A DNA stretch of 64,000 nt from positions 496,001-560,000 of the forward strand of contig JAHLKT010000001.1 in assembly GCA_020444545.1 (NCBI GenBank), in the 5' to 3' direction. A program made the translations under genes and the position numbers. Below are positions 25,646 to 45,177 of the stretch, piece by piece (the first letter of the stretch is position 1; every line of letters starts with the position of its first letter). This stretch comes from Desulfarculaceae bacterium. Its GTDB lineage: Bacteria > Desulfobacterota > Desulfarculia > Desulfarculales > Desulfarculaceae. The notes beneath the pieces are model-generated. The model saw only the letters and a list, made by a program, of their open reading frames with translations, was not told the origin of the DNA and searched no databases.

Positions 25646-26479
25646 ATGAAACTCGGCAAGTTGATCAAAGTGATCGGTGGCGCGGCCATGGTCGCGACCT
25701 TGGCTTTCGGCGCCGCCCCGGCCATGGCCGGTGAAACCATCAGCATCACCGGCTCCACCACCGTGCTGCCCATCGCCCAGAAGGCCGCCGAGGTCTACAT
25801 GAAGCAGAATCCCGGCGTGCGCATCAGCGTGGCCGGCACCGGCAGCGGCGACGGCATCAAGGCCGTGATCGATGGCACCGCCGACATCGGCGACGCCAGC
25901 CGCGACATGAAGAAGAAAGAGATCGCCCTGGCCAAGAAAAAGGGCCACAGCCCGATCAAGAACGTGGTGGCCCTGGACTGCATCGTGCCGGTGGTCAACC
26001 CGGCCAACCCGGTCAAGGACCTGTCCCTGGCCCAGCTCAAGGACATCTACGCCGGCAAGGTCAAGAACTGGAAGGACGTGGGCGGCCTGGACAAGACCAT
26101 CGTGGTGATCAGCCGCGACAGCTCCTCGGGCACCTTCGAGGTGTGGAACAAGAAGGTGCTGGGCAAGAAGACCCGCGTGCGCCCCGACGCGCAGCTGCAG
26201 GCCTCCAACGGCGCGGTGGCCCAGGCGGTCTCCGGCAACAAGTACGCCATCGGCTACGTGGGCATCGGCTACCTGAACCCCAAGCTCAAGGGCCTCACCG
26301 TGGGCGGCGTGATGGCCAGCCCCAAGACCGCCATGGATAAGAGCTACCCCATCGCGCGTCAGCTGTTCATGTTCACCGGCCCTAATCCCAAGCCCGAGGT
26401 GAAGAAGTTCCTGGCTTTCGTCAAGGGCCCCGAGGGTCAGAAGATCGCCAAGGATGAAGGCTTCGTCCCGGTCAAGTAA
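25646..26479 (+). CDS. pstS: Phosphate ABC transporter substrate-binding protein
   Basis: A 277-residue periplasmic phosphate-binding protein with a signal peptide ending APAMAGE. Phosphate-binding motifs are visible: SITGSTTVLPIAQ, GTGSGDGIKAVIDGTADIGDASRDM and SRDSSSGTFEVWN. It delivers phosphate to PstCAB. GGAGG precedes the ATG by 8 bases. A stable hairpin without a T-run lies just downstream, before a porin gene, so pstS is probably expressed more strongly than what follows. Confidence 0.95.
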   Translation: MKLGKLIKVIGGAAMVATLAFGAAPAMAGETISITGSTTVLPIAQKAAEVYMKQNPGVRISVAGTGSGDGIKAVIDGTADIGDASRDMKKKEIALAKKKGHSPIKNVVALDCIVPVVNPANPVKDLSLAQLKDIYAGKVKNWKDVGGLDKTIVVISRDSSSGTFEVWNKKVLGKKTRVRPDAQLQASNGAVAQAVSGNKYAIGYVGIGYLNPKLKGLTVGGVMASPKTAMDKSYPIARQLFMFTGPNPKPEVKKFLAFVKGPEGQKIAKDEGFVPVK

Positions 26480-26547: not shown

Positions 26548-26613
26548 CCAATAAACCCGCCGGAAGCTGTGGCGGCCTCCGGCGAAAAGTTAACCAACCG
26601 AAAGGAGAGGCTA

Positions 26614-27882
26614 ATGAGAGGAGTCAGCAAAGCGCTGGGCACAATCGCCCTGGCGGCTGCCTTCGTCACCACCACCTGGATGGCCGCGCCCGCGATGGCG
26701 TCCAACCAGGCCGAGCTCGAGGCCAAGATCCAGGCCATGGAGCAGACCCTCAACCAGATGAAGACCCAACTCCAGCAGGTGCAGACCAGCCAGCAGCAGC
26801 AGGCGGTCGAGGTTGCCTCCAAGAGCAAGCTCCCCTCCTGGATGGAGCGCATGACCTTCTACGGCGACACCCGCTTCCGTTATGAGCACACCAGCTACGA
26901 CGAACTCAACGGCAAGTCCAAGTCCGGCAAGGACCGCTTCCGGGTGCGTCTGCGCTTCGGCGTGCGCAGCCAGATCCACGAGGACGTGGAGCTGGGTATG
27001 CGCATGGTGACCGGGGCCAACAGCGACGCCACCAGCACCAACCAGACCATGGGCAACTACTTCGGCGAGTACAGCGCCTGGGGCCTGGACCGGGCCTACG
27101 TCAAGTGGACCCCGAGCTTCGTTCCCCAGAAGGGCTTCATGTTCGAGTTCGGTAAGGTGCCCCAGCCCTTCATGACCTCCAAGGCCATCTGGGACGGCGA
27201 CGTGGTGCCCGAGGGTGCCTTCGCGCAGTACACCTTCAACAAGGCCGGCTCCTGGCAGCCCTACGTGCTGGCTTCCTACATGACCGTGGAGCAGAGCGGC
27301 GAGTTCAGCGACAACGTGCTGGCTCCGGCGGCCCAGATCGGCGTCAAGGGCAAGGTCGGCGCCTTCAAGATCAAGGCCGCCACCAGCTACACCTCCTGGG
27401 GCGACCTGGGCAACGTGGACAAGGTGCCCGAGTACACCAACGGCAACCCGACCTGGACCGAAGGCGGCGGCACCCGCATGAGCAACTTCGCGGTGTGGGA
27501 TCTGTACGCCAAGGGCGAGTTCAAGTTCAGCAAGAAGGGCTCCGTGAGCCTCTGGGGCCACTACCTGACCAACCAGGACGCCGACGGCCCCTGGCAGGAC
27601 CAGGACACCGGCTGGGCCGCGGGCGCGGGCGTCAAGTACACCAAGTTCGGCTTCAAGCTGTGGTACAAGAACATCGAAGCCAACGCGACTCCCGGCTTCA
27701 TCGCCGACAGCGACTCCGGTTACGTCAACCGCAAGGGTTGGGTGGCCAGCGCCTCCTACAAGATGTGGAAGTACGGCAAGGTGGTCCTGAGCTACTACAA
27801 CACCGAGCCCATCGAGGATTCCATCCCCGGCGCCAAGAACGCCTCGCAGACCTTCTTCTGCGACTTCATCTTCAAGTTCTAA
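26614..27882 (+). CDS. Outer-membrane porin, phosphate-regulon associated (copy 1)
   Basis: A 422-residue protein with a signal peptide (ending APAMAS), a short coiled-coil rich in Gln (residues about 30-65) and a C-terminal beta-barrel that ends in Phe (CDFIFKF), typical of outer-membrane proteins. Strand-like alternation is clear in DTRFRYEHTSYD, RVRLRFGVRSQIHEDVELGMRM and FEFGKVPQPF. It resembles the putative porin family seen in Deltaproteobacteria. Position between pstS and pstC suggests phosphate or anion uptake. The second porin shares most of its sequence. Confidence 0.88.
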   Translation: MRGVSKALGTIALAAAFVTTTWMAAPAMASNQAELEAKIQAMEQTLNQMKTQLQQVQTSQQQQAVEVASKSKLPSWMERMTFYGDTRFRYEHTSYDELNGKSKSGKDRFRVRLRFGVRSQIHEDVELGMRMVTGANSDATSTNQTMGNYFGEYSAWGLDRAYVKWTPSFVPQKGFMFEFGKVPQPFMTSKAIWDGDVVPEGAFAQYTFNKAGSWQPYVLASYMTVEQSGEFSDNVLAPAAQIGVKGKVGAFKIKAATSYTSWGDLGNVDKVPEYTNGNPTWTEGGGTRMSNFAVWDLYAKGEFKFSKKGSVSLWGHYLTNQDADGPWQDQDTGWAAGAGVKYTKFGFKLWYKNIEANATPGFIADSDSGYVNRKGWVASASYKMWKYGKVVLSYYNTEPIEDSIPGAKNASQTFFCDFIFKF

Positions 27883-27937
27883 GCCCCACCTGCGACCGCG
27901 GCTCCATCCTACCTGGCCGCGGTTGCCCTCGGACCCG

Positions 27938-27969
27938 GGCCCGGGGCGTCAAGCCCCGGGCCTTCTCTT
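27938..27969 (+). terminator. Terminator after porin 1
   Basis: GGCCCGGGGC and GCCCCGGGCC pair around GTCAA, followed by TTCTCTTT. Confidence 0.75.
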
Positions 27970-28065
27970 TGGCCCATCGCCCTTTCCCTGCCCCTTCTCT
28001 TGCCTCTTGACCTATGTTGCGATCTGAGGCAGAATTAACAATAGCATGTGAATAGTTGCACACAA

Positions 28066-28083
28066 CTGTTACGTGCCGGTTAC
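28066..28083 (+). promoter_or_regulatory. Pho box upstream of porin 2
   Basis: CTGTTAC-GTGC-CGGTTAC is a pair of 7-bp direct repeats with 4-bp spacing, matching PhoB-site geometry. A TTGACC (28085-28090) with TTAAAC 17 bp further downstream could be the -35 and -10 boxes. Confidence 0.6.
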
Positions 28084-28149
28084 ATTGACCTGGTTTCCCC
28101 GAGCGTTTTAAACTACATCTGGAAGCAGGCAAGTAGGAGGAGAGGAGCA

Positions 28150-29412
28150 ATGAGAAAAGCAGGTCTATTTCTGGCCTTGCTGGCGGCGTTGAGCCTATGG
28201 GTGGCTCCCATGGCCTCGGCGGCCACGCCGTCCGATTTGGAAGCCAAGATCAAGGCCATGGAGCAGCAGCTCCAGAGCATGAAAGAACAGCTGAAGCAGG
28301 TGCAGAGCACCCAGCAGCAGCAGCAACAGCAAGCGGTGGAAGCGGCGGCCCAGAGCAAGCTGCCCGCCTGGGTGGAGCGCATCACCCTGTTCGGCGACGT
28401 TCGCTTCCGCTATGAGCACACCAATTACGACGATCTCAACGGCAAGTCCAAGGACGGCAAGGACCGCTTCCGGATTCGCCTGCGCTTCGGGGCCCGCAGC
28501 CAGATCCACCAGGACGTGGAGGTCGGCTTCCGCATGGCCACCGGCAGCGACACCGACCCCACCAGCACCAACCAGACCATGGGCGGCTACTTCGGCGAGT
28601 TCAGCAACTGGGGCCTCGACCAGGCCTATGTGAAGTACACCCCCAGCTTCATGCCCCAGAGGATGGCCACCTTCAGCTTCGGCAAGGTGCCCAACCCCCT
28701 GGTCACCTCCAAGATCATCTGGGATAGCGACGTGGTGCCCGAGGGCGCGTTCCTCAACTTCACCTTCAACAAGGACGGCAACGTCCGGCCCTTTGTCACC
28801 GCCACCTACATGACCGTGTCCGAGGACGGCGAGTTCGGCGACAACGTGCTGGCCCCGGCCCTGCAAGCGGGCGCCAAGGGCAAGCTCGGCGCCTTCGACT
28901 TCACCGGCGCGGCGGGTTACACCTCGTGGGGCAACTTGGGCGACAACGGCAAGCTGCCGCCCAACCTGCACGGCACCCCCACCTACGTGGAGGGCGGCTC
29001 CGAGCGCACCACCAACTACGCGGTGGTGGATGTCTACGCCAAGGGCGCCTTCAAGTTCAGCAAGAAGGGCTCGGTGGGCCTGTGGGGCCAGTGGCTCAAG
29101 AACCAGGACTCCGAGGGCCCCTACCAGAGCAAGGACCAGGGCTACGGCGCGGCCGCCTTTGTCACCTACGACAAGTTCAAGTTCGAGGTGCTCTACAAGA
29201 ACGTGGAGGCCAACGCCACCCCGGGCTTCATCGCCGACAGCGACTCCGGGTACGTGAACCGCAAGGGTTGGCAGGTCGAGGGCCAGTACAAGATGTGGAA
29301 GTACGGCAAGCTGGTGGTCACCTACTACAACACCGAGCCCGAGGACGAATCCATCCCCGGGGCCAGCAACCCCTCTCAGACCATCTTCGTGAACACCATC
29401 TTCAAGTTCTAG
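28150..29412 (+). CDS. Outer-membrane porin, phosphate-regulon associated (copy 2)
   Basis: The 420-residue paralogue of the preceding porin has the same layout: signal peptide (ending PMASA), a Gln-rich coiled coil with an expanded QQQQQQ run, and a beta-barrel ending FVNTIFKF. Long blocks such as TNQTMGGYFGEFSNWGLD and NATPGFIADSDSGYVNRKGW are shared with copy 1, so the pair arose by tandem duplication. It has its own Pho box and a GGAGGAGAGG ribosome site, so the two copies can be regulated separately. Confidence 0.88.
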   Translation: MRKAGLFLALLAALSLWVAPMASAATPSDLEAKIKAMEQQLQSMKEQLKQVQSTQQQQQQQAVEAAAQSKLPAWVERITLFGDVRFRYEHTNYDDLNGKSKDGKDRFRIRLRFGARSQIHQDVEVGFRMATGSDTDPTSTNQTMGGYFGEFSNWGLDQAYVKYTPSFMPQRMATFSFGKVPNPLVTSKIIWDSDVVPEGAFLNFTFNKDGNVRPFVTATYMTVSEDGEFGDNVLAPALQAGAKGKLGAFDFTGAAGYTSWGNLGDNGKLPPNLHGTPTYVEGGSERTTNYAVVDVYAKGAFKFSKKGSVGLWGQWLKNQDSEGPYQSKDQGYGAAAFVTYDKFKFEVLYKNVEANATPGFIADSDSGYVNRKGWQVEGQYKMWKYGKLVVTYYNTEPEDESIPGASNPSQTIFVNTIFKF

Positions 29413-29459: not shown

Positions 29460-29491
29460 GGCCCGGGGCACCCCGCCCCGGGCCATTTTTT
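29460..29491 (+). terminator. Terminator after porin 2
   Basis: GGCCCGGGGC and GCCCCGGGCC pair around ACCCC and are followed by ATTTTTTG. The T-run directly abuts the next Pho box. Confidence 0.85.
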
Positions 29492-29518
29492 GTCACCAAG
29501 TTGTAACCTTCCAGTCAC
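29490..29518 (+). promoter_or_regulatory. Triple Pho box upstream of pstC
   Basis: Three 7-bp half-sites, TTGTCAC, TTGTAAC and CAGTCAC, recur at an exact 11-bp period, separated by CAAG and CTTC. This is the architecture expected for cooperative PhoB binding (consensus CTGTCAT/C). It lies about 65 bases before the pstC start. Confidence 0.75.
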
Positions 29519-29583
29519 CTCCCGGGAACATCCTCGCACTACCTTAGTTGCAACTAGAACTACTCAATTGCGAGTTGTTGATA

Positions 29584-30546
29584 ATGATGCAATTTCCCCA
29601 AGCCCAGACCCTGCGCGCCGACAACGCCACGGCCCTTTCCCTGGGAAAGAAAAAGGGCATGTCCAGCACCCAGCGCGAGGTCTGGATCCGGCGCTTCTTT
29701 GTGTTGGCCGGGTTCTTCTCGGTCATCGTCATGGCCCTCATCGTGCTGTTTTTATTCAAGGAAGGCCTGGGGCTGTTCAGCGAGGTCAGCATCAAGGACT
29801 TCCTGTTCGGCGAGTTCTGGTATCCCACCTACGACCCGCCTGATTTCGGCATCCTGCCCTTGATCGCCGGCTCGGTGGCCGTGACAGCCCTGTCTTCGCT
29901 GCTGGCGGTTCCCCTGGGCGTGGGCGCGGCCCTGTATCTGGGCGAGGTGGCCGGCAACCGCACCCGCGAGATACTCAAGCCCGCGGTGGAGCTGTTGGCC
30001 GGGCTGCCCTCGGTGGTCTTGGGCTTCGTGGGCATGGTGGTGATAGCTCCGCTCATGCAGGAATGGTGGGACATTCCCACCGGACTCAACGTATTCAACG
30101 CCTCGATGATGCTGGCCATCATGGCCATCCCCACCATCGCTTCCATCAGCGAGGACGCCCTGCACTCGGTGCCCCGCGACCTTCAGGAAGCCTCCCTGGC
30201 CCTGGGGGCCACCCGCCTGGAGACCCTCAGCCGGGTCCTGGTGCCGGGCGCGCTCTCGGGCATCGGCACGGCGGTGATCCTGGGCATGAGCCGGGCCATG
30301 GGCGAGACCATGGTGGTCTTGATGGTGGCCGGCGGCGCGGCCCAGATTCCGGGATCCATCTTCGATTCGGTGCGCCCCCTGCCCGCGACCATCGCCGCGG
30401 AAATGGGCGAGACGCCTTTCGGCTCCGAGCACTACCACGCCCTGTTCGCCATCGGCATCGTGCTCTTCCTGCTCACCCTGGGCTTCAACCTGGTGGCGGC
30501 CTACATATCCAACCGCTTCCAGCAGAAGGGAGCGGCCACCTTATGA
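29584..30546 (+). CDS. pstC: Phosphate ABC transporter permease PstC
   Basis: An inner-membrane permease of about 320 residues with six or more hydrophobic helices. The coupling loop contains [29 protein letters not shown], the EAA-type motif that contacts PstB. Start is uncertain: ATG 29584 or 29587 gives a GC-rich, coding-like N-terminus but no clear ribosome site, while ATG 29659 ([12 protein letters not shown]) follows AAAGAAAAAGGG. The stop overlaps the pstA start. Confidence 0.94.
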
Positions 30547-31427
30547 GCACCGACAGCCTGAGCACCAACTCCCTGCCCATGCGCCGCCTGCGCCAGAACC
30601 TGGTCTTCGGCCTGTTCCGCCTGACCATGCTCATCGTGCTGGGCGCCCTGGGGGGCATCCTGCTCTACGTGCTCATCCACGGGGCCGGGGCCATCAGCTG
30701 GACCTTCCTCACCGAGTCGCCCCAGAACTCCATGACCGAGGGCGGCATCTTCCCGGCCATCATGGGCACCCTCTACCTCACCGTCGGGGCCATCCTGGTG
30801 GCCCTGCCCCTGGGCGTGGCGGCGGCCATATACCTGAGCGAATACGCCACCGACGGCAAGGCCCTCAAGATCGTGCGCCTGGGCATCCAGAACCTGGCGG
30901 GCGTGCCCTCGGTGGTCTTCGGCCTGTTCGGCCTGGCGTTGTTCGTGGGCTATTTCGGGCTGGGCGTGTCCATCGCGGCCGGCTCCCTGACCCTGGGCCT
31001 GCTCATATTGCCCACGGTGATCGGGGCCTCGGAAGAGGCGCTTCGGCAGGTGCCGGCCACCTTCCGCGAGGCCTCCCTGGGCCTGGGCGCCACCCGCTGG
31101 CAGACCATACGCAAGGTGGTGTTGCCGGCCGCCCTGCCCGGCATCCTCACCGGCTCCATCCTGGGCATCGGCCGCGCCGCCGGCGAGACCGCGCCCATCA
31201 TGTTCACCGCGGCCACCTTCTACACCATCGGCCTGCCCCGCTCGCCCCTGGACGAGGTGATGGCCCTGCCTTATCACATCTACGTTTTGGCCACCGCCGG
31301 CACCCACATCGAGGCCACCCGGCCCTTGCAGTACGGCACGGTGCTGGTGCTCATCACCCTGGTGCTGGGCCTGAGCCTGGTGGCCATCATCATCCGCACC
31401 AAAATGAGAAAGACCAAGAAATGGTAA
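30543..31427 (+). CDS. pstA: Phosphate ABC transporter permease PstA
   Basis: A 294-residue partner permease with six predicted helices and the loop [31 protein letters not shown], the EAA motif for PstB. The [11 protein letters not shown] segment is typical of PstA. The ATG overlaps the pstC stop (ATGA), and its own end overlaps pstB by 7 bases. Confidence 0.95.
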
Positions 31428-32221
31428 GTGCAACCGCCACGGCGGCCCAGGCCGGCCTCAGCCCGGAGCGCCCCATTATCGAGGTGTCGGGCCTCAACTT
31501 CTATTACGGCGACTTCAAGGCCCTGGCCGACGTGGAGATGAACATCAAGCGGGGACAGGTGACCGCGCTGATCGGCCCCTCGGGCTGCGGCAAGAGCACC
31601 TACCTGCGTCTGTTGAACCGCATGAACGACCTGATCCCCGGCACCCGGGTGGAGGGCTCGGTGCTCATGGACGGGATCGACCTCTACGGCCCGGACGTGG
31701 ACCCGGTGGACGTGCGGCGGCGGGTGGGCATGGTTTTCCAAAAGCCCAACCCCTTCCCCAAGACCATCTACAACAACGTGGCTTACGGCCCCCGCTTGCA
31801 CGGGGTCAAGGACCACAAAAAGCTGGACGGTTTGGTGGAGCACTCGCTGAAATCAGCCGCCCTGTGGGATGAGGTCAAGGACATTTTACACCAGTCGGCC
31901 TTGGGGCTTTCCGGCGGCCAACAGCAGCGCCTTTGCATCGCCCGGGCCATCGCCATGGAGCCGGAAGTGCTCCTCATGGACGAGCCCACCAGCGCCCTGG
32001 ACCCCATCGCCACCAGCCGCATCGAGGAGTTGGTTAAGGAACTTAAGGTACGCTATACTGTAATAATCGTTACCCATAACATGCAGCAGGCTGCCCGGGT
32101 CAGCGACGAAACCGCATTCTTCTACATGGGCAAGCTGGTGGAAATGAGCGACACCGAAAGCATCTTCACCCGCCCCCAAAAAGAGCAGACCGAACATTAC
32201 ATCACCGGCCGATTCGGCTAG
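31421..32221 (+). CDS. pstB: Phosphate ABC transporter ATPase PstB
   Basis: A 266-residue ATPase with Walker [10 protein letters not shown], PstB-typical [19 protein letters not shown]-loop [19 protein letters not shown], signature [16 protein letters not shown], Walker [14 protein letters not shown] and the switch His in [10 protein letters not shown]. The [11 protein letters not shown] block separates PstB from other ABC ATPases. Confidence 0.97.
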
Positions 32222-32249
32222 GCCAACCAGCTTGCGCAAGGAATAATTC

Positions 32250-32939
32250 ATGGAAGGGTTATCGCATTTCCACCGCCGGATGCAGGAGGTCAAGGAAGAC
32301 CTCCTGAAGATGGCCGGACGGGCCGAACAGGCCGTGCACAGCGCCACCCGGGCCCTGGACGCCCGCGACGTGGAGTTGGCCAAATCGGTGATTCAGGGGG
32401 ACCGGCGCATCGACCTGATGCAGAACGAGATCGAAGAACGCTGCATCAACCTGCTGGCCACCCAGCAGCCGGTGGCGGTGGACCTGAGGTTCCTCTCGGC
32501 GGTCACCAAGATCGCCAGCTTCCTGGAGCGCATGGGCGACCAGGCGGTCAACCTGGCCCAGCGGGCCATGGCCCTGGCCGAGCTGGACCCGGTGCCCACG
32601 CCCGGCACCATCATGTCCATGAGCACCATCGCCCGCGAGATGAGCAAGGACTGCCTGGACTCCTTCGTGGAGGAGGACGTGGCCAAGGCCGAGCGGGTCC
32701 TGGTCCGCGACGACGAGCTGGACCAGCTCTGCCGCTCCTTTTTGGAGGAGATGATCGGCTGGATGAACGAGGAGCGCCGCCTGGTGCGGCGCGGGGTGGA
32801 ATTCATCCTGGCCAGCCGCCATCTGGAGCGCATCGGCGACGAGGCCACCAACGTGGCCGAGGAGGTGGTCTACCTGGTGGAAGGCCGCATCATCCGCCAC
32901 GGCGGCAAGCCCGCCTCGGTGGCGGTGGGACCGCTCTAG
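32250..32939 (+). CDS. phoU: Phosphate signalling regulator PhoU
   Basis: A 229-residue all-helical protein with two PhoU repeats. Metal-binding motifs ITKIASFLERMGDQAVNLAQRA and ASRHLERIGDEATNVAEEVVYL show the typical E/DxxxD pattern. PhoU couples PstSCAB activity to repression of the PhoR/PhoB system; no phoR or phoB is present in this window. It is the last gene of the pst cluster. Confidence 0.95.
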   Translation: MEGLSHFHRRMQEVKEDLLKMAGRAEQAVHSATRALDARDVELAKSVIQGDRRIDLMQNEIEERCINLLATQQPVAVDLRFLSAVTKIASFLERMGDQAVNLAQRAMALAELDPVPTPGTIMSMSTIAREMSKDCLDSFVEEDVAKAERVLVRDDELDQLCRSFLEEMIGWMNEERRLVRRGVEFILASRHLERIGDEATNVAEEVVYLVEGRIIRHGGKPASVAVGPL

Positions 32940-39153: not shown

Positions 39154-39765
39154 CTAGCGCACGCAGCGCAGCCGGCCGTTGTCGTTGGTCAGGGTGCGGC
39201 AGCCCCGGATTTTCACCCAGGTGCCGTGCCAGTCGCCGCCCCGGTTCTTGCACTCGGCCCACATGCGGTCGCCTTCCACCCGCCAGCGGCGGCAGCTCTG
39301 GCGCCAGGGGCCGTCGGGCACCCGGTAGGTGCGGCCCGAGCCGCAAACCAGGCGGCCGTTGTCATTGCCCACCTCGCCCCGGCAGCGGCTCACGTCCAGC
39401 CAGGACTGCACCCAGTCGCCGTGGCTGTTCTTGCACTCGGCCAACAGGGAGTTGCCCTTCATGCGCCCCCGGCGGCAGGAGTTGCGCCAGGAGCCTTGGG
39501 GCAGATCGCGCCCGCCGCCACCGCAGGTGAGCTGGCCCTCCTGGTTGGCGATGTCTCCGTTGCAGCGGTAATAGCGGATGCTGGTGTCGAACCAGCGCCC
39601 GCCGCCGGCCCGGCAGCGGCAGTTGAGCCGCCCGTTGTCCACGTAGCAGTCCTTGCAGGAGTCGCGGTAGCTGCCCGGAGGCAACACCTTGGCCCCGGCG
39701 ATCATGGGCATGGCCAGCACCAGCCCCAGGATCGCCATCGCGGCGATCGTCGCGAATTTTCTCAT
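39154..39765 (-). CDS. Secreted CVNH (cyanovirin-N-like) protein, three repeats
   Basis: A 203-residue protein with a signal peptide (MRKFATIAAMAILGLVLAMPMIAGA) and three tandem CVNH-like units, each with the layout PxGSWRxSC...L.AECKN.GGxW..S.......C.......NGRLVCG. Units start near LPPGSYRDSC, LPQGSWRNSC and PDGPWRQSC. CVNH proteins bind mannose-rich or other glycans. The mature part is basic and Cys-rich (about 16 Cys), so it is probably periplasmic or extracellular and disulfide-bonded. ATG 39765 has AGGAGGAG upstream. Confidence 0.85.
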   Translation of the reverse strand: MRKFATIAAMAILGLVLAMPMIAGAKVLPPGSYRDSCKDCYVDNGRLNCRCRAGGGRWFDTSIRYYRCNGDIANQEGQLTCGGGGRDLPQGSWRNSCRRGRMKGNSLLAECKNSHGDWVQSWLDVSRCRGEVGNDNGRLVCGSGRTYRVPDGPWRQSCRRWRVEGDRMWAECKNRGGDWHGTWVKIRGCRTLTNDNGRLRCVR

Positions 39766-39791
39766 TTCCACTCTCCTCCTGCTTCAGCTTT

Positions 39792-40463: not shown

Positions 40464-40499
40464 AAAAAACCGGGGGCGGACCCGGCATTCCGCCCCCGG
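40464..40499 (-). terminator. Terminator after the Lgt-like gene
   Basis: On the minus strand CCGGGGGCGGA and TCCGCCCCCGG form an 11-bp stem followed by TTTTTTG. It closes the three-gene unit that begins at about 45.02 kb. Confidence 0.85.
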
Positions 40500-40521: not shown

Positions 40522-41574
40522 TTAGATGTTTTCCTGGACCACGTGGAACTTGACCGTGGCTCCGGTCACCCGGCTGCGGCCGGTGTAGAGCAAGGCGGCG
40601 ATGCCCAGCGCCTGCAGGCCCAGGAGCACCCAGGGATTCCACAGCACGGCCAGCCCCGCGCCCAGGCTGGGCAGGGGGTCCGTGGCCGCGGGCAGGGCCC
40701 AGAGCACCAGGGCGCAGTATGGCAGGGCGGCCAGGGCCATCCACTGATAGGCGGTTAGCTTGCCCCCGCCCCGGTGATCGGCCCGGAGCATCTCGGCCAA
40801 TACCCGCCACACCTGGCTGACCCCCACCGACAACAAGAGGGCCAGGGCGTAGCGGCCCGAGAGGAACAGGCTGAGCCCGGCCAGGCCGGTGGCCATGTTC
40901 AGCGCCGCGCTCAGCGCCTGCACCGGCACCACCTTGCGTCCGGCCAGGCCGCTCTCGTAGGAGATCTTTTTGGTGGCCCCGGAAAAGCTCATGGCCAGGG
41001 GCTCCAGCAGCGAGCGCATGCGGGGGCTCAGGCTGTCCAGGGGCTTGCCGTAGCAGCAGCCGAAGCTCAGGCAGGCCATGCGGCCCAGGCCCTCGCCGAA
41101 GACATAGGCCACGGCCATGGCGGTGAGGGCGGGCAGCACCGGGAACTCGAAGCCCATGCTGTTGCCCAGGGCGGCTCGGGCCCCCAGGGCCAGCCAGGGC
41201 GCGGCCAACAGACCCACGAAAAAGGCCCCGGCCACGGTGAGGGTGAAGCGTTTGTGCTCCACCACCCGAGCCATGATGCGCGCCGCCGGGGCCGACACGC
41301 TGATCAGCGGCAGGCCGAAGACCAGCGCGCCCAGGGCGGGGACACCCACCGAGCCCAGCATGAACAGCAGCAGGGCCGAGGAGAGCATCACCCCCCCGGC
41401 GGTGATCAGCCCGTAGTAGGTGATGTTCATGCCGCTCCAGGAGCCGTCGCCCTGCTTGGCCAGGGGCACGGCGGCCAAAATCTGCCAGCGCTCGCCGGGC
41501 AGATGGCGGCAGCCCCACCAGAGCAGCGAGGCCAGCCCGGCCCCCAGAAGCAAGATCAGGATCGCGTTTTCCAT
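40522..41574 (-). CDS. Prolipoprotein-diacylglyceryl-transferase-like membrane protein
   Basis: A 350-residue polytopic protein with about eight or nine hydrophobic segments. The block GEGLGRMACLSFGCCYGKPL resembles the variant Lgt signature GRxGCxxxGCCYG seen in divergent COG0682 members, where classical Lgt has GRIGNFxNGE. Classical Lgt transfers diacylglyceryl from phosphatidylglycerol to lipoprotein Cys; this relative may use another acceptor or lipid. It lies 18 bases downstream of a PSD homologue. ATG 41574 follows AAGGAGAGAG; an in-frame GTG at 41592 is possible. Confidence 0.72.
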   Translation of the reverse strand: MENAILILLLGAGLASLLWWGCRHLPGERWQILAAVPLAKQGDGSWSGMNITYYGLITAGGVMLSSALLLFMLGSVGVPALGALVFGLPLISVSAPAARIMARVVEHKRFTLTVAGAFFVGLLAAPWLALGARAALGNSMGFEFPVLPALTAMAVAYVFGEGLGRMACLSFGCCYGKPLDSLSPRMRSLLEPLAMSFSGATKKISYESGLAGRKVVPVQALSAALNMATGLAGLSLFLSGRYALALLLSVGVSQVWRVLAEMLRADHRGGGKLTAYQWMALAALPYCALVLWALPAATDPLPSLGAGLAVLWNPWVLLGLQALGIAALLYTGRSRVTGATVKFHVVQENI

Positions 41575-41610
41575 GAGACTCTCTCCTTGCACCCCCGTGG
41601 AATATCCGGC

Positions 41611-42618
41611 CTAAACCGCGCGCCCGATGCGCGAGCGCACCTTGACCTCGGTCTCCACCAGGGGCCGGCCCAGACCGGCCGAGAAGCGGCTGTGCACCCC
41701 CGGGGCCCTGAGGTTGGCCAGCAGGTCGTCGTCGAAAACCACCCGCCCCGCCTGGAACAGAAGCACCACCGTGCTGCCCCCGGGGCGGAACAGGCTCTTG
41801 GGCTGGCCTTTGGCCAAAAACATGCCGGGCACCACCGGGCGGGGCCGGTCGTAGGCGTTGTGGCAGTAGCACTGCACCACCTCGCCCACCATCAAGGCGG
41901 CCACCTCGATCATGGCCACCAGGCCGCAGCCGGTGCCCCGGGGCACGTCGGTGTCGATGATGGTCACCTCGCGCCGGTTCTTCGACAGAGGCGCCAGGCC
42001 GTCCACCGTGGCGGTGGGGTTGCAGGCGTGGCAGCCGCCGCCGATGGCGTAGTGGTCCACCACCCGCCCGGACACCGGGGTGTGGGCGTAGTGGTACTTG
42101 TCCGGGGTCAGGCGGCCCACCGCGTAGTCGGCCTTGGCCAGGGCGGTGAGCCAGCGGGTCTTGGTCTCGCCGATGAGCTCGGCGAAGGTAAAGAACTTCT
42201 CCTTGAGATACAGCGCCGAGTCGCGCTCCAGGGAGCCCACCAAGAGGCGGCAGTCCGCCGGGGCCACCACCGCGAAGGGGTCGTGGTCCATGGGCCGGGT
42301 CTGCCAATAGCGGATCTTGCGCTCAAAGACCTTGCGCGGGGTGTCCAGCAGGGCCGGGTCGTCCAGACACTCGGCCGGGTCCACCCCCAGGGAGGCCAGC
42401 ATGGCCGCGCCCCCGCCCTTGGGGCGGTTGATCATCAGGTCGTAGTTCAAAAACCCCAGCAGGTTGGAAAAGCGGGGGCTGGTCAGGACGTTGAACAATG
42501 GCGTGGCCTTTTCCTTGATGCCCCCGTAGAGCAGCGAGACCAGCTTGTCGCCCACCAGGCGCTCGGTGACAACCTGGCCGGTGGGGCGGTCGATGTATTG
42601 ATGGGCGCTATGCGGCAT
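41611..42618 (-). CDS. Phosphatidylserine-decarboxylase-family pro-enzyme
   Basis: A 335-residue PSD relative with the full machinery: catalytic Asp in APADCR (about residue 122), His in KYHYAHTP (about 179), and the self-cleaving GGST motif (Ser about 282) whose Ser becomes the pyruvoyl group. An unusual Cys/His insert, GGGCHACNPTATVDGL, follows the His motif. Canonical PSD makes phosphatidylethanolamine. This divergent form, in an unknown operon, might decarboxylate another amino-acid headgroup lipid. It starts inside the end of the 804-residue gene (11-base overlap). Confidence 0.85.
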   Translation of the reverse strand: MPHSAHQYIDRPTGQVVTERLVGDKLVSLLYGGIKEKATPLFNVLTSPRFSNLLGFLNYDLMINRPKGGGAAMLASLGVDPAECLDDPALLDTPRKVFERKIRYWQTRPMDHDPFAVVAPADCRLLVGSLERDSALYLKEKFFTFAELIGETKTRWLTALAKADYAVGRLTPDKYHYAHTPVSGRVVDHYAIGGGCHACNPTATVDGLAPLSKNRREVTIIDTDVPRGTGCGLVAMIEVAALMVGEVVQCYCHNAYDRPRPVVPGMFLAKGQPKSLFRPGGSTVVLLFQAGRVVFDDDLLANLRAPGVHSRFSAGLGRPLVETEVKVRSRIGRAV

Positions 42619-45022
42619 CCTTGTCCTCGCGGTTGCCCCCGGGCTCGCCGCCGGCATAGCGCCGGGCGTCCGCGGCCAGGGAGACGATGAGCAGGTTGAT
42701 CAGGTTCAGGGCCTCGCCGGGGGCCATGGTGCCCCGGGCCAAGCCGCTCTCGGCGGCGCGCAGGCAGCGGGCGGCCCCGCCCCGGCCTCCGGCCCACTCC
42801 AGGGCCCGGCCCAGCTCGCCCTCCAGGGCGCGGCTTTGGGTCAGGTCTTGCCGGAGCAGGCCCAGGGCCTCCTCCAGGTGTGACCGGCGCAGGCCCTCGC
42901 GGTAGTGCTCCTCGGCCGCCTGGTTGAACTCGGCCGCCGTGGCCCGGAAGGGGTCTTTCACCCCCAGGCGGTCCAGCACCCCGGCGGTGAGGCGGCCCTG
43001 GGCCCCCAGTTCGGGCTGGTCCAGGCGGGCCTCCAGGTCCTCCAGCATGGGCCCCAGGCCCATGGCCTCGATGAGCCCGGCCCCCTCGCGGCGGATATAG
43101 GCCAAAAGGGCCCGGCGGTACTCCAGGTTGTAGACCCGGAGGTAGCCGGGGTAGCGGCGGCTGTGGCGCACCCGGCGGCTGTCGGCGGCCAGTGAGCGCA
43201 GGAAGATGTTGTCGCTGTCCATGCGCAGGTAGAAGGTGGGGATGCCGATGGCCGCGCCGAAGAAGGCCTGGCGCCGCTCGCTCTCCACCTCGGGCCCGTC
43301 GGGGATGTGGCTCATGGCCAGGCGTCCCCGGGCGATCTGCAACAGGGCCAGGGCGGTGATCAGGCGTTGCAGCTCCGCCGCCGGGGCCAGGTCTTTTTGC
43401 AGCCCGGCGAAGAGGCTGTAGTGGCGGCCCTCGAAGCCGGAAAAGCCCATGGCCGCGAATTCGCGCTGGCGGTAGAGCAGGTAAATGGGCATGCAGGGGT
43501 CGAACGCGCCCTGCTGGGCCAGGTCGTGCTTGAGGCGCTCCTGGTTGCCCAGGCGGCCGTCCAGGGCCGGGGCGGAGTGGCTGCTCATCACCGCCACCAG
43601 GTAGTCCATGAGGCGGAAGTCGCCCACGAAGTCGCCCTTGAGCCCCAGGCCGCGGGCCAGCATGGCGTCCAGCCAGGGCGGGCCGAAGGGGGTCAGGCGC
43701 AGGCCCAAAAAGCGCGATTTGAGCCGCGCCTTCTTTTTCCAGCGCCGCCAGATCATGCGCAGGTGGGTGTAGTCCAGCTCAAAGGGCAGGAAGCCCAGCA
43801 CCCGCTCGGGGTGGAAGTCCGCGAAGTCCAGGCGATAGGGAGCGGCGCTGTAGGAGCCCACGAACAGGGGCAAAAAGTGCTCCACGAACTTGATGACCAG
43901 ATCGCCCACATACTTCTCGGCCGTGGGACCCATGTCCCCCTGGCCGTGGGCCAGGGCCTTGGAGAGCCTGCGGCTGCCCAGGCTGATGTGCACCCCGTTG
44001 TTGGCCAGGCTGATGTTGCTGGCCCCGGGCAGCACCACCAGGTTGCGGGTGATGATGCCCGCTTCCTTGAGCCGCGCCAGGGCGTTGAACTGGGCCCGGC
44101 TGAGCGTCTGGTGGCACAGGTGCATGTAGCGGTGCTTGTCCTCGCCCCGGTCCCAACCGCTCAGGCAAGGGCTCATGAACAGCTCGCGGTAAAAGCTGTC
44201 GCTCACGCAGTCGTTGAGCTGCTTCTGGCGCACCGGGGGGTGGGGCGCGAAGTAGGCCAGCACCCGCTGGCCGCTCTCGGCCAGGCCCAGGGCGCCCTCG
44301 GCATAGGCCAAAAGGGCCTGGGTGAGCAAAAAGCGCTTGGCCGTCTCCCCGGCCAGGGCCCGGCCCAGGCCCGGCCCGGAGTCGTCCACCACGTGGAAGG
44401 AAAAGGTCTCGGGCGAGGTGTTGTCGCTGAGGAAGTGCTCCATTAGGCGGCGGCCGGTGGCCTTGAGCAGATTGGGCGCGCCGGGCTGGCGGCCCAGGGC
44501 CTCGGCCAGGGAGAGCTTGAGCAAATAGCTCACCGGCACCCGCAGGTGCTCCGAGCCCTGGTGCCGCACCACGAAGCGCCCCGCGTCGGCCCGGCGGCCC
44601 TGGCCGGGGTCGGCCTTGTCGGCCAGGAGATCCTGCTCCCACACCCGGCGGGCGGCCGGGCTCAGGGCGTCCAGGGGCAGGCGCACCCAGGAGTTCTCCC
44701 ACACCCCGCCGGGGTTGGCGGCCAGGTATTCGTCCAGGTCGTTGACCAGGCGGGCCGGGGTGTCGCCCCGCCGCTGGCGCTTGACCAAATTCAGGTAGAA
44801 GTTGGAGCTCTCGATGGTCAGGGGCAGGTCCACCTGATCCCGCCCCCCGGCCACCGCGGCCTGTAGCTCGTTCTCGCAGCCGGCCGTGGCGTCGCCGGGC
44901 CCAAAAGGCAACGAGGCCGCCAAGGCGTCCTCGCTGCCCAGGTCCAGTCCCAGCCGGGACAGCCAGGCGGCCGGATAGCGGCCCCCCTGGCGTTTCCAGT
45001 TTTGCATGTCAACCATGGGCAT
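42608..45022 (-). CDS. Large protein of unknown function, first gene of PSD/Lgt-like unit
   Basis: An 804-residue protein I do not recognise. It has no signal peptide and no clear membrane helix, so it is probably cytoplasmic. Distinctive segments include TIESSNFYLNLVKRQRRGD, RFVVRHQGSEHLRVPVSYLL, LPGASNISLANNGVHISLGS, RLDFADFHPERVLGFLPFEL and TFYLRMDSDNIFLRSLAAD. The C-terminal 150 residues are helical and Arg/Glu-rich. I choose ATG 45022 because GGGGAG ends 12 bases upstream; the ATG at 45034 would directly abut that site. Tight overlap with a PSD homologue suggests a lipid-linked role (inference). Confidence 0.8.
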   Translation of the reverse strand: MPMVDMQNWKRQGGRYPAAWLSRLGLDLGSEDALAASLPFGPGDATAGCENELQAAVAGGRDQVDLPLTIESSNFYLNLVKRQRRGDTPARLVNDLDEYLAANPGGVWENSWVRLPLDALSPAARRVWEQDLLADKADPGQGRRADAGRFVVRHQGSEHLRVPVSYLLKLSLAEALGRQPGAPNLLKATGRRLMEHFLSDNTSPETFSFHVVDDSGPGLGRALAGETAKRFLLTQALLAYAEGALGLAESGQRVLAYFAPHPPVRQKQLNDCVSDSFYRELFMSPCLSGWDRGEDKHRYMHLCHQTLSRAQFNALARLKEAGIITRNLVVLPGASNISLANNGVHISLGSRRLSKALAHGQGDMGPTAEKYVGDLVIKFVEHFLPLFVGSYSAAPYRLDFADFHPERVLGFLPFELDYTHLRMIWRRWKKKARLKSRFLGLRLTPFGPPWLDAMLARGLGLKGDFVGDFRLMDYLVAVMSSHSAPALDGRLGNQERLKHDLAQQGAFDPCMPIYLLYRQREFAAMGFSGFEGRHYSLFAGLQKDLAPAAELQRLITALALLQIARGRLAMSHIPDGPEVESERRQAFFGAAIGIPTFYLRMDSDNIFLRSLAADSRRVRHSRRYPGYLRVYNLEYRRALLAYIRREGAGLIEAMGLGPMLEDLEARLDQPELGAQGRLTAGVLDRLGVKDPFRATAAEFNQAAEEHYREGLRRSHLEEALGLLRQDLTQSRALEGELGRALEWAGGRGGAARCLRAAESGLARGTMAPGEALNLINLLIVSLAADARRYAGGEPGGNREDKDAA

Positions 45023-45177
45023 GAATTCGGGCATCTCCCCGCTTTGCGGTTGCCGACCCCCGGTCCCCTGGACCTATGAGGTCTTTACATGCCCGAATTT
45101 ACGCCCAAATCACCACGCTTGCGTGGCGGGGGCGTTACCGAATTGTGAACAGATGGTGAAAAAGAGGCCCGGGAAGG

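Follow-up and report, generated by a model that had tools for sequence, protein, structure and literature searches.

A candidate Pho-associated three-gene unit for an undescribed, probably phosphorus-free aminolipid headgroup in a Desulfarculaceae genome

What might a bacterium make with a relative of phosphatidylserine decarboxylase (PSD), a membrane protein resembling the diacylglyceryl transferase Lgt, and a large protein of no named family, when all three are encoded side by side? This question is raised by a three-gene unit on the minus strand of a 64,000-nucleotide stretch of a Desulfarculaceae bacterium genome (GenBank assembly GCA_020444545.1, contig JAHLKT010000001.1, positions 496,001 to 560,000), hereafter the window, whose numbering is used for coordinates below. 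The answer that we favor, and hold to be rather probable, is that the unit belongs to the phosphate-starvation response, putatively under Pho control, and encodes a pathway to the headgroup of a glycerolipid that has not been described, bears an amine, and probably contains no phosphorus.

Gene layout and co-inheritance

Translation together with an open reading frame (ORF) listing confirmed three minus-strand genes in the order ligase, PSD-like, Lgt-like. The first (42608..45022, with an alternative open start at 45034) encodes the large protein of 804 residues, predicted from its ORF and a model with the glutamate-cysteine ligase fold to be an ATP-dependent carboxylate-amine ligase. The second (41611..42618) encodes a 335-residue PSD-like protein, a predicted pyruvoyl decarboxylase on the basis of PF02666 and catalytic residues aligned to Escherichia coli Psd, and the third (40522..41574) encodes a 350-residue Lgt-like integral membrane protein, assigned from PF01790 and the Lgt fold. 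The ligase and PSD-like genes overlap by 11 bases, 36 bases separate the PSD-like from the Lgt-like gene, and an intrinsic terminator on the same strand (about 40464..40499; GC-rich hairpin with a T run, −30.7 kcal/mol, z = −2.2) closes the unit. ORFs and folding agree on each of these points with an earlier sequence-only reading of this DNA, which had described one minus-strand unit with this overlap, gap, and terminator.

The order large protein, PSD-like protein, Lgt-like protein is kept in 13 relatives with a full-length large protein and in a 14th seen in pieces; the draft assembly of one of these relatives has an interrupted PSD frame. Among 84,980 species genomes scanned, 220 related stretches were found, and 80 of them were kept for neighborhood analysis. 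The three genes are contiguous in most of these 80 loci, including contigs labeled Acidobacteria, Brocadia, and Nitrospinae in the database records themselves, and of 70 loci, 58 show an overlap between the ligase and PSD frames. The distances among homologs vary in parallel for the three proteins, their matrices correlating at r = 0.79 to 0.86. Across 394 genomes of the phylum, mostly at least 90% complete, family-specific profiles matched the ligase in 49, the Lgt-like protein in 49 (E 1e-20), and the PSD-like protein in 49 (E 1e-60), with all three genes present in the same 48. One further genome (G015) carries the PSD-like and Lgt-like genes and misses only the ligase gene, because its contig stops 143 bases past the PSD gene; in another (G403), the ligase match is spurious (33 bits over 32 residues, no partner genes). 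All 8 genomes picked because at least one gene stands apart still contain both partners. Since the profiles match the same genomes and separated genes retain their partners, a joint function of the three proteins is strongly supported. The neighborhood check that the sequence-only reading had proposed thus found the genes together both across and beyond the phylum. It is extremely improbable that the PSD-like and Lgt-like proteins are redundant phosphate-inducible isozymes that sit next to an unrelated ligase without sharing a pathway; the Psd catalytic residues are intact, as such isozymes would have them, but the near-perfect co-occurrence of the three families in the 394 genomes and the overlap of the ligase and PSD frames speak against it.

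The source genome (4.38 Mb, estimated completeness of 100%) was also searched with profiles for housekeeping counterparts, a check likewise proposed earlier. Besides the operon copies it carries two further PF02666 genes and one strong lgt, so the operon genes are extra copies, and we rejected the reading of them as the housekeeping psd and lgt. One of the other psd genes sits upstream of a leuA-like gene. A third PSD-family gene (L038:7327-8553, about G000:C2:394326-395552) encodes 408 residues with an apparent signal peptide, judged by eye, and lies upstream of apparent thiolase and acyl-CoA dehydrogenase genes. The housekeeping Lgt reads GCFSAGCCYG and hence shares GCCYG with the operon protein; this signature, earlier taken as a variant and a sign of novelty, was dropped.

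Predicted chemistries of the three proteins

The 804-residue protein matched no Pfam or NCBIfam family and gave no significant sequence match in the PDB. Its AlphaFold2 model, built with 79 sequences, was confident (mean predicted local distance difference test [pLDDT], 88.8; predicted template modeling score [pTM], 0.92), and the best match in the VIA fold comparison was E. coli gamma-glutamylcysteine synthetase (Z = 18.2, 411 residues, 4.2 Å). Further relatives were bifunctional glutathione synthetases, YbdK (Z = 16.6), PafA and Dop (Z about 14), and glutamine synthetase (Z = 8.8); rows 1 to 21 all fell in the carboxylate-amine ligase superfamily (Z = 8.6 to 18.2), and the next, unrelated row had a Z of 5.3. 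G-x-E-x-E is a motif of the glutamate-cysteine ligase/carboxylate-amine ligase superfamily, and it is resembled by the E-x-E that Glu50 and Glu52 form on the first strand of the core in the operon protein; both residues are invariant in 79 of 79 sequences, and many other Glu and Arg residues are invariant too. Because the confident model shows the glutamate-cysteine ligase fold, the protein is most likely an ATP-dependent carboxylate-amine ligase; fold similarity does not reveal its substrate. The earlier statement that the large protein has no recognizable family holds for Pfam and NCBIfam but not for fold, which places it in a known superfamily visible by structure only. Ligase matches at G307:C10, G452:C1, and G367:C8 each contain one in-frame TAG.

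The same fold counts in favor of a soluble low-molecular-weight thiol or amide pathway, glutathione-like and with lipid enzymes recruited secondarily. PF04262 GshA was found in 0 of 198 genomes of the phylum, so another thiol system is possible there. We nevertheless consider such a pathway very unlikely for this unit, whose constant partner is an integral membrane protein of the Lgt fold, whose ligase lacks sequence similarity to GshA, and which is associated with Pho genes (see below). Glutathione synthesis by the unit is disfavored by the absence of PF04262 from those 198 genomes and by a failed profile match to a single GshA sequence.

The PSD-like protein scored 121 bits against PF02666 (PS_Dcarbxylase; cutoff, 22) and fell under the cutoffs of the NCBIfam Psd equivalogs (110.7 versus 371 bits and 71.9 versus 111.75 bits). 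In the alignment to E. coli Psd, Asp122, His176, His179, and Ser282 fill the catalytic positions, and each is invariant wherever the residue is present among 73 sequences, in keeping with the Asp, His, and GGST machinery that the sequence-only reading had recognized. Members of the PSD family form a pyruvoyl group and decarboxylate substrates bearing a primary amine, and the PSD-like protein should do the same. The GGGCHACNP stretch had been described as a Cys/His insert; it aligns with E. coli Psd without gaps, so that there is no insert, and we no longer count it as a mark of novelty. In most relatives the motif reads GxYHSCNP, and an H-x-C-N-P motif (His in 64 of 73 sequences, Cys in 72 of 73) stands in place of the usual Psd sequence.

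The Lgt-like protein scored 29.5 bits against PF01790 (LGT; cutoff, 24.9). Its AlphaFold2 model (pLDDT, 92.8) had only one good VIA match, E. coli Lgt with bound phosphatidylglycerol (5azb, Z = 13.4; next row, 5.0). Counterparts of Lgt Arg143, Arg239, and Glu243 are kept (Arg165 in 67 of 68 relatives, Arg257 and Glu261 in 68 of 68), and their conservation suggests that phosphatidylglycerol is still the donor. Given these two structures, the unit could be imagined to carry out posttranslational lipidation, with a PafA-like ligase attaching an aminolipid to a protein or peptide, or with the Lgt-like protein as a specialized lipoprotein modifier. The ligase counts PafA (the Pup ligase) and Dop among its structural relatives, and Lgt, whose fold the membrane protein has, normally modifies lipoproteins. 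However, no conserved small-protein gene was found beside the unit in the 80 neighborhoods, in which ORFs of fewer than 90 residues were not examined; the decarboxylase has no known part in lipoprotein modification; and the Pho context would be left unexplained. We rate lipidation as quite unlikely. The earlier suggestion of a lipid headgroup or lipid-to-protein transfer pathway is therefore supported in its headgroup part, whereas the lipid-to-protein part found no positive evidence.

Phosphate-starvation context and the proposed pathway

The ligase fold, a pst-phoU cluster within the window, and Pho-box-like sites were overlooked by the sequence-only reading. The cluster lies on the plus strand, 7.5 kb from the operon, and comprises pstS (25646..26479; PBP_like_2, 160 bits, a sequence-based assignment), two Porin_5 outer-membrane porins between pstS and pstC (26569..29412), and pstC, pstA, pstB, and phoU (29548..32939; BPD_transp_1 twice, ABC_tran, and PhoU). 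Pho boxes were scanned with the E. coli consensus and a three-unit score, and the matches are candidates at the level of sequence. Upstream of the ligase gene, Pho-box-like direct repeats (TTTTCAC-N4-TGTTCAC-N4-CGGTAAC; 45134..45162, minus strand; shuffle P = 0.015) form the only minus-strand site in the window scoring at least 16.5, and their 7-mers are mostly retained in the nearest relative. The best site in the window (score, 18.5) lies upstream of pstC (29490..29518, plus strand). The three distinct sites scoring at least 16.5 precede the second porin (at its likely start, 28055), pstC (29490), and the ligase gene (45162).

Across relatives, candidate Pho boxes at P < 0.05 occurred in 20 of 74 ligase upstream regions (27%) versus 26 of 303 control genes (8.6%; Fisher P = 6e-5), with 56% for pstS as a positive control and 1.4% for PSD genes. 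Genes for pstS, phoU, or pit lie within about 10 kb of the unit in 21 of the 80 relatives (binomial P = 2e-14, to be read loosely, as it assumes independent loci and a 3% background that we set ourselves), and three of the 8 genomes with separated genes have their PSD-like gene near pstS-type genes while the ligase gene lies at another site. Because the unit sits by phosphate-uptake genes, its product is probably an undescribed membrane lipid for times of phosphate scarcity. A diacylglyceryl transferase, a decarboxylase, and an amide-bond-forming ligase under putative Pho control would suit the synthesis of an amine lipid without phosphorus.

In the pathway that we propose, the Lgt-like enzyme would, like Lgt, draw diacylglyceryl from phosphatidylglycerol and move it onto a small acceptor, releasing glycerol phosphate; the PSD-like enzyme would decarboxylate an amino-acid part to a free amine, leaving an ethanolamine- or cysteamine-like headgroup; and the ligase, using ATP, would link an amine to a carboxylate, which is probably supplied by the gamma position of glutamate or by a similar amino acid. 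Decarboxylation probably precedes any ligation to the amine of the decarboxylated part, because a pyruvoyl decarboxylase requires a free amine. The most likely acceptor would be cysteine or one of its derivatives. Cysteine is the natural guess by analogy, since it receives diacylglycerol from Lgt and is used by glutamate-cysteine ligase, the enzyme with the nearest ligase fold. We infer the acceptor, the order of steps, and that the product is a membrane lipid free of phosphorus. A more specific version, tentative and on the unlikely side, is a sulfur-linked phosphorus-free lipid in which diacylglyceryl is placed on the cysteine thiol, decarboxylation yields diacylglyceryl-cysteamine (a thioether analogue of phosphatidylethanolamine), and the amine is capped by a gamma-glutamyl or similar group. 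We found neither a published pathway of this kind nor diacylglyceryl-cysteine or -cysteamine membrane lipids in a literature search that covered few subscription papers and no bioRxiv preprints.

The Pho association is equally compatible with a unit that modifies a phosphorus-containing lipid, such as an aminoacylated phosphatidylethanolamine or phosphatidylglycerol derivative, or another part of the envelope, as a general phosphate-stress response. The PSD-like enzyme retains every catalytic residue of phosphatidylserine decarboxylase and the ligase could acylate an aminolipid, yet extra phospholipid during phosphate starvation would be counterproductive. A diacylglyceryl transferase consuming phosphatidylglycerol would instead free phosphate, and phospholipase C and glycosyltransferase genes lie near the unit in some relatives. 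We judge this alternative unlikely.

Several observations weigh against the phosphorus-free aminolipid pathway. The Pho-box evidence is statistical, each site being weak when taken singly; roughly three in four relatives show no pst or pho gene within 10 kb, although many contigs are short; and the pst-linked loci come partly from related lineages. The ligase was assigned from its structure, and alignment of the ligase profile to the single E. coli GshA sequence with hhalign gave a probability of 0.3%, i.e., no detectable sequence homology. In the Lgt-like protein, the counterpart of Lgt His103 is absent (hhalign, whose alignment is weak in this part, places Val at the position), and no alignment column except near the C terminus has His in more than half of the sequences; acceptor chemistry may differ for this reason. 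The housekeeping Lgt of the same genome seems likewise to lack His103 (it reads FYGG, by eye).

Phosphate limitation is known to remodel lipids in a sulfate reducer: Desulfovibrio alaskensis replaces >90% of its phospholipids with glycolipids and ornithine lipids (PMC5193443). Similar remodeling is therefore expected in sulfate reducers and their kin. The present genome gave no match to the BtaA family and none to Acetyltransf_5, which we take to be OlsB; other ornithine-lipid genes were not searched.

Neighbors of the unit in some relatives include a Zn-dependent phospholipase C, a PHP-GT4 glycosyltransferase, a PhoH-like protein, and CHAD and CYTH proteins. In a Brocadia-labeled locus (L074:13910-14491), the operon runs on into genes for an N-methyltransferase, most similar to OlsG/PmtA, and for a PHP-GT4 glycosyltransferase. 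At two loci (L071:13456-16696 and L078:13548-16719), CHAD, ParA-like, and CYTH proteins, families of a type often tied to polyphosphate, are encoded between the PSD-like and Lgt-like genes, and several relatives (L099:3611-4045 and similar loci) have a gene for a DksA/TraR-type zinc-finger protein in that place. The DksA-like, CHAD/CYTH, and HAD genes lie between or beside the genes of the unit in some relatives and are not universal, and we rejected them as parts of it. A 732-residue protein without a Pfam or NCBIfam match (L068:7503-9701) recurs by the unit in five Geobacter-type loci. Downstream of the operon, the window itself encodes a protein (39154-39771) in which two stretches match the CVNH (cyanovirin-N homology) domain.

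Comparison with known systems

In many anoxic environments, lipids without phosphorus are prevalent (PMC5193443). The lipids that anaerobes make under phosphate scarcity, and their genes, are only partly known. The present gene set, found in about one-eighth of the genomes sampled from the phylum and comprising three recognizable chemistries, offers a directly testable candidate pathway whose product is a possible lipid biomarker. It also proposes what certain branches of the Psd, Lgt, and glutamate-cysteine-ligase superfamilies may do, branches whose members would otherwise be annotated as housekeeping enzymes or left without a name.

With the known phosphate-starvation lipid remodeling systems (PlcP/Agt glycolipids, ornithine lipids, and BtaAB betaine lipids; PMC5193443), the operon shares its Pho context, lipid enzymes, and proposed role. 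It differs in its enzyme set, and its genome gave no BtaA or Acetyltransf_5 (OlsB-type) match. The operon ligase has the overall fold of GshA, YbdK, and PafA/Dop (about 340 to 410 aligned residues) and the E-x-E on the first core strand; at about 13% identity, however, it escapes their sequence profiles, and in comparison with GshA it is about 300 residues longer, Pho-linked, and encoded with lipid enzymes. The PSD-like protein shares PF02666, the Asp, the two His, and the Ser expected to turn into the pyruvoyl group with Psd, but forms a group distinct from the housekeeping psd, with the conserved H-x-C-N-P, and falls far under the NCBIfam equivalog cutoffs. The Lgt-like protein, finally, shares with Lgt its fold (Z = 13.4), PF01790, and the counterparts of Arg143, Arg239, and Glu243, whereas it lacks the His103 counterpart, is divergent elsewhere, and is encoded at a separate site from the housekeeping Lgt.

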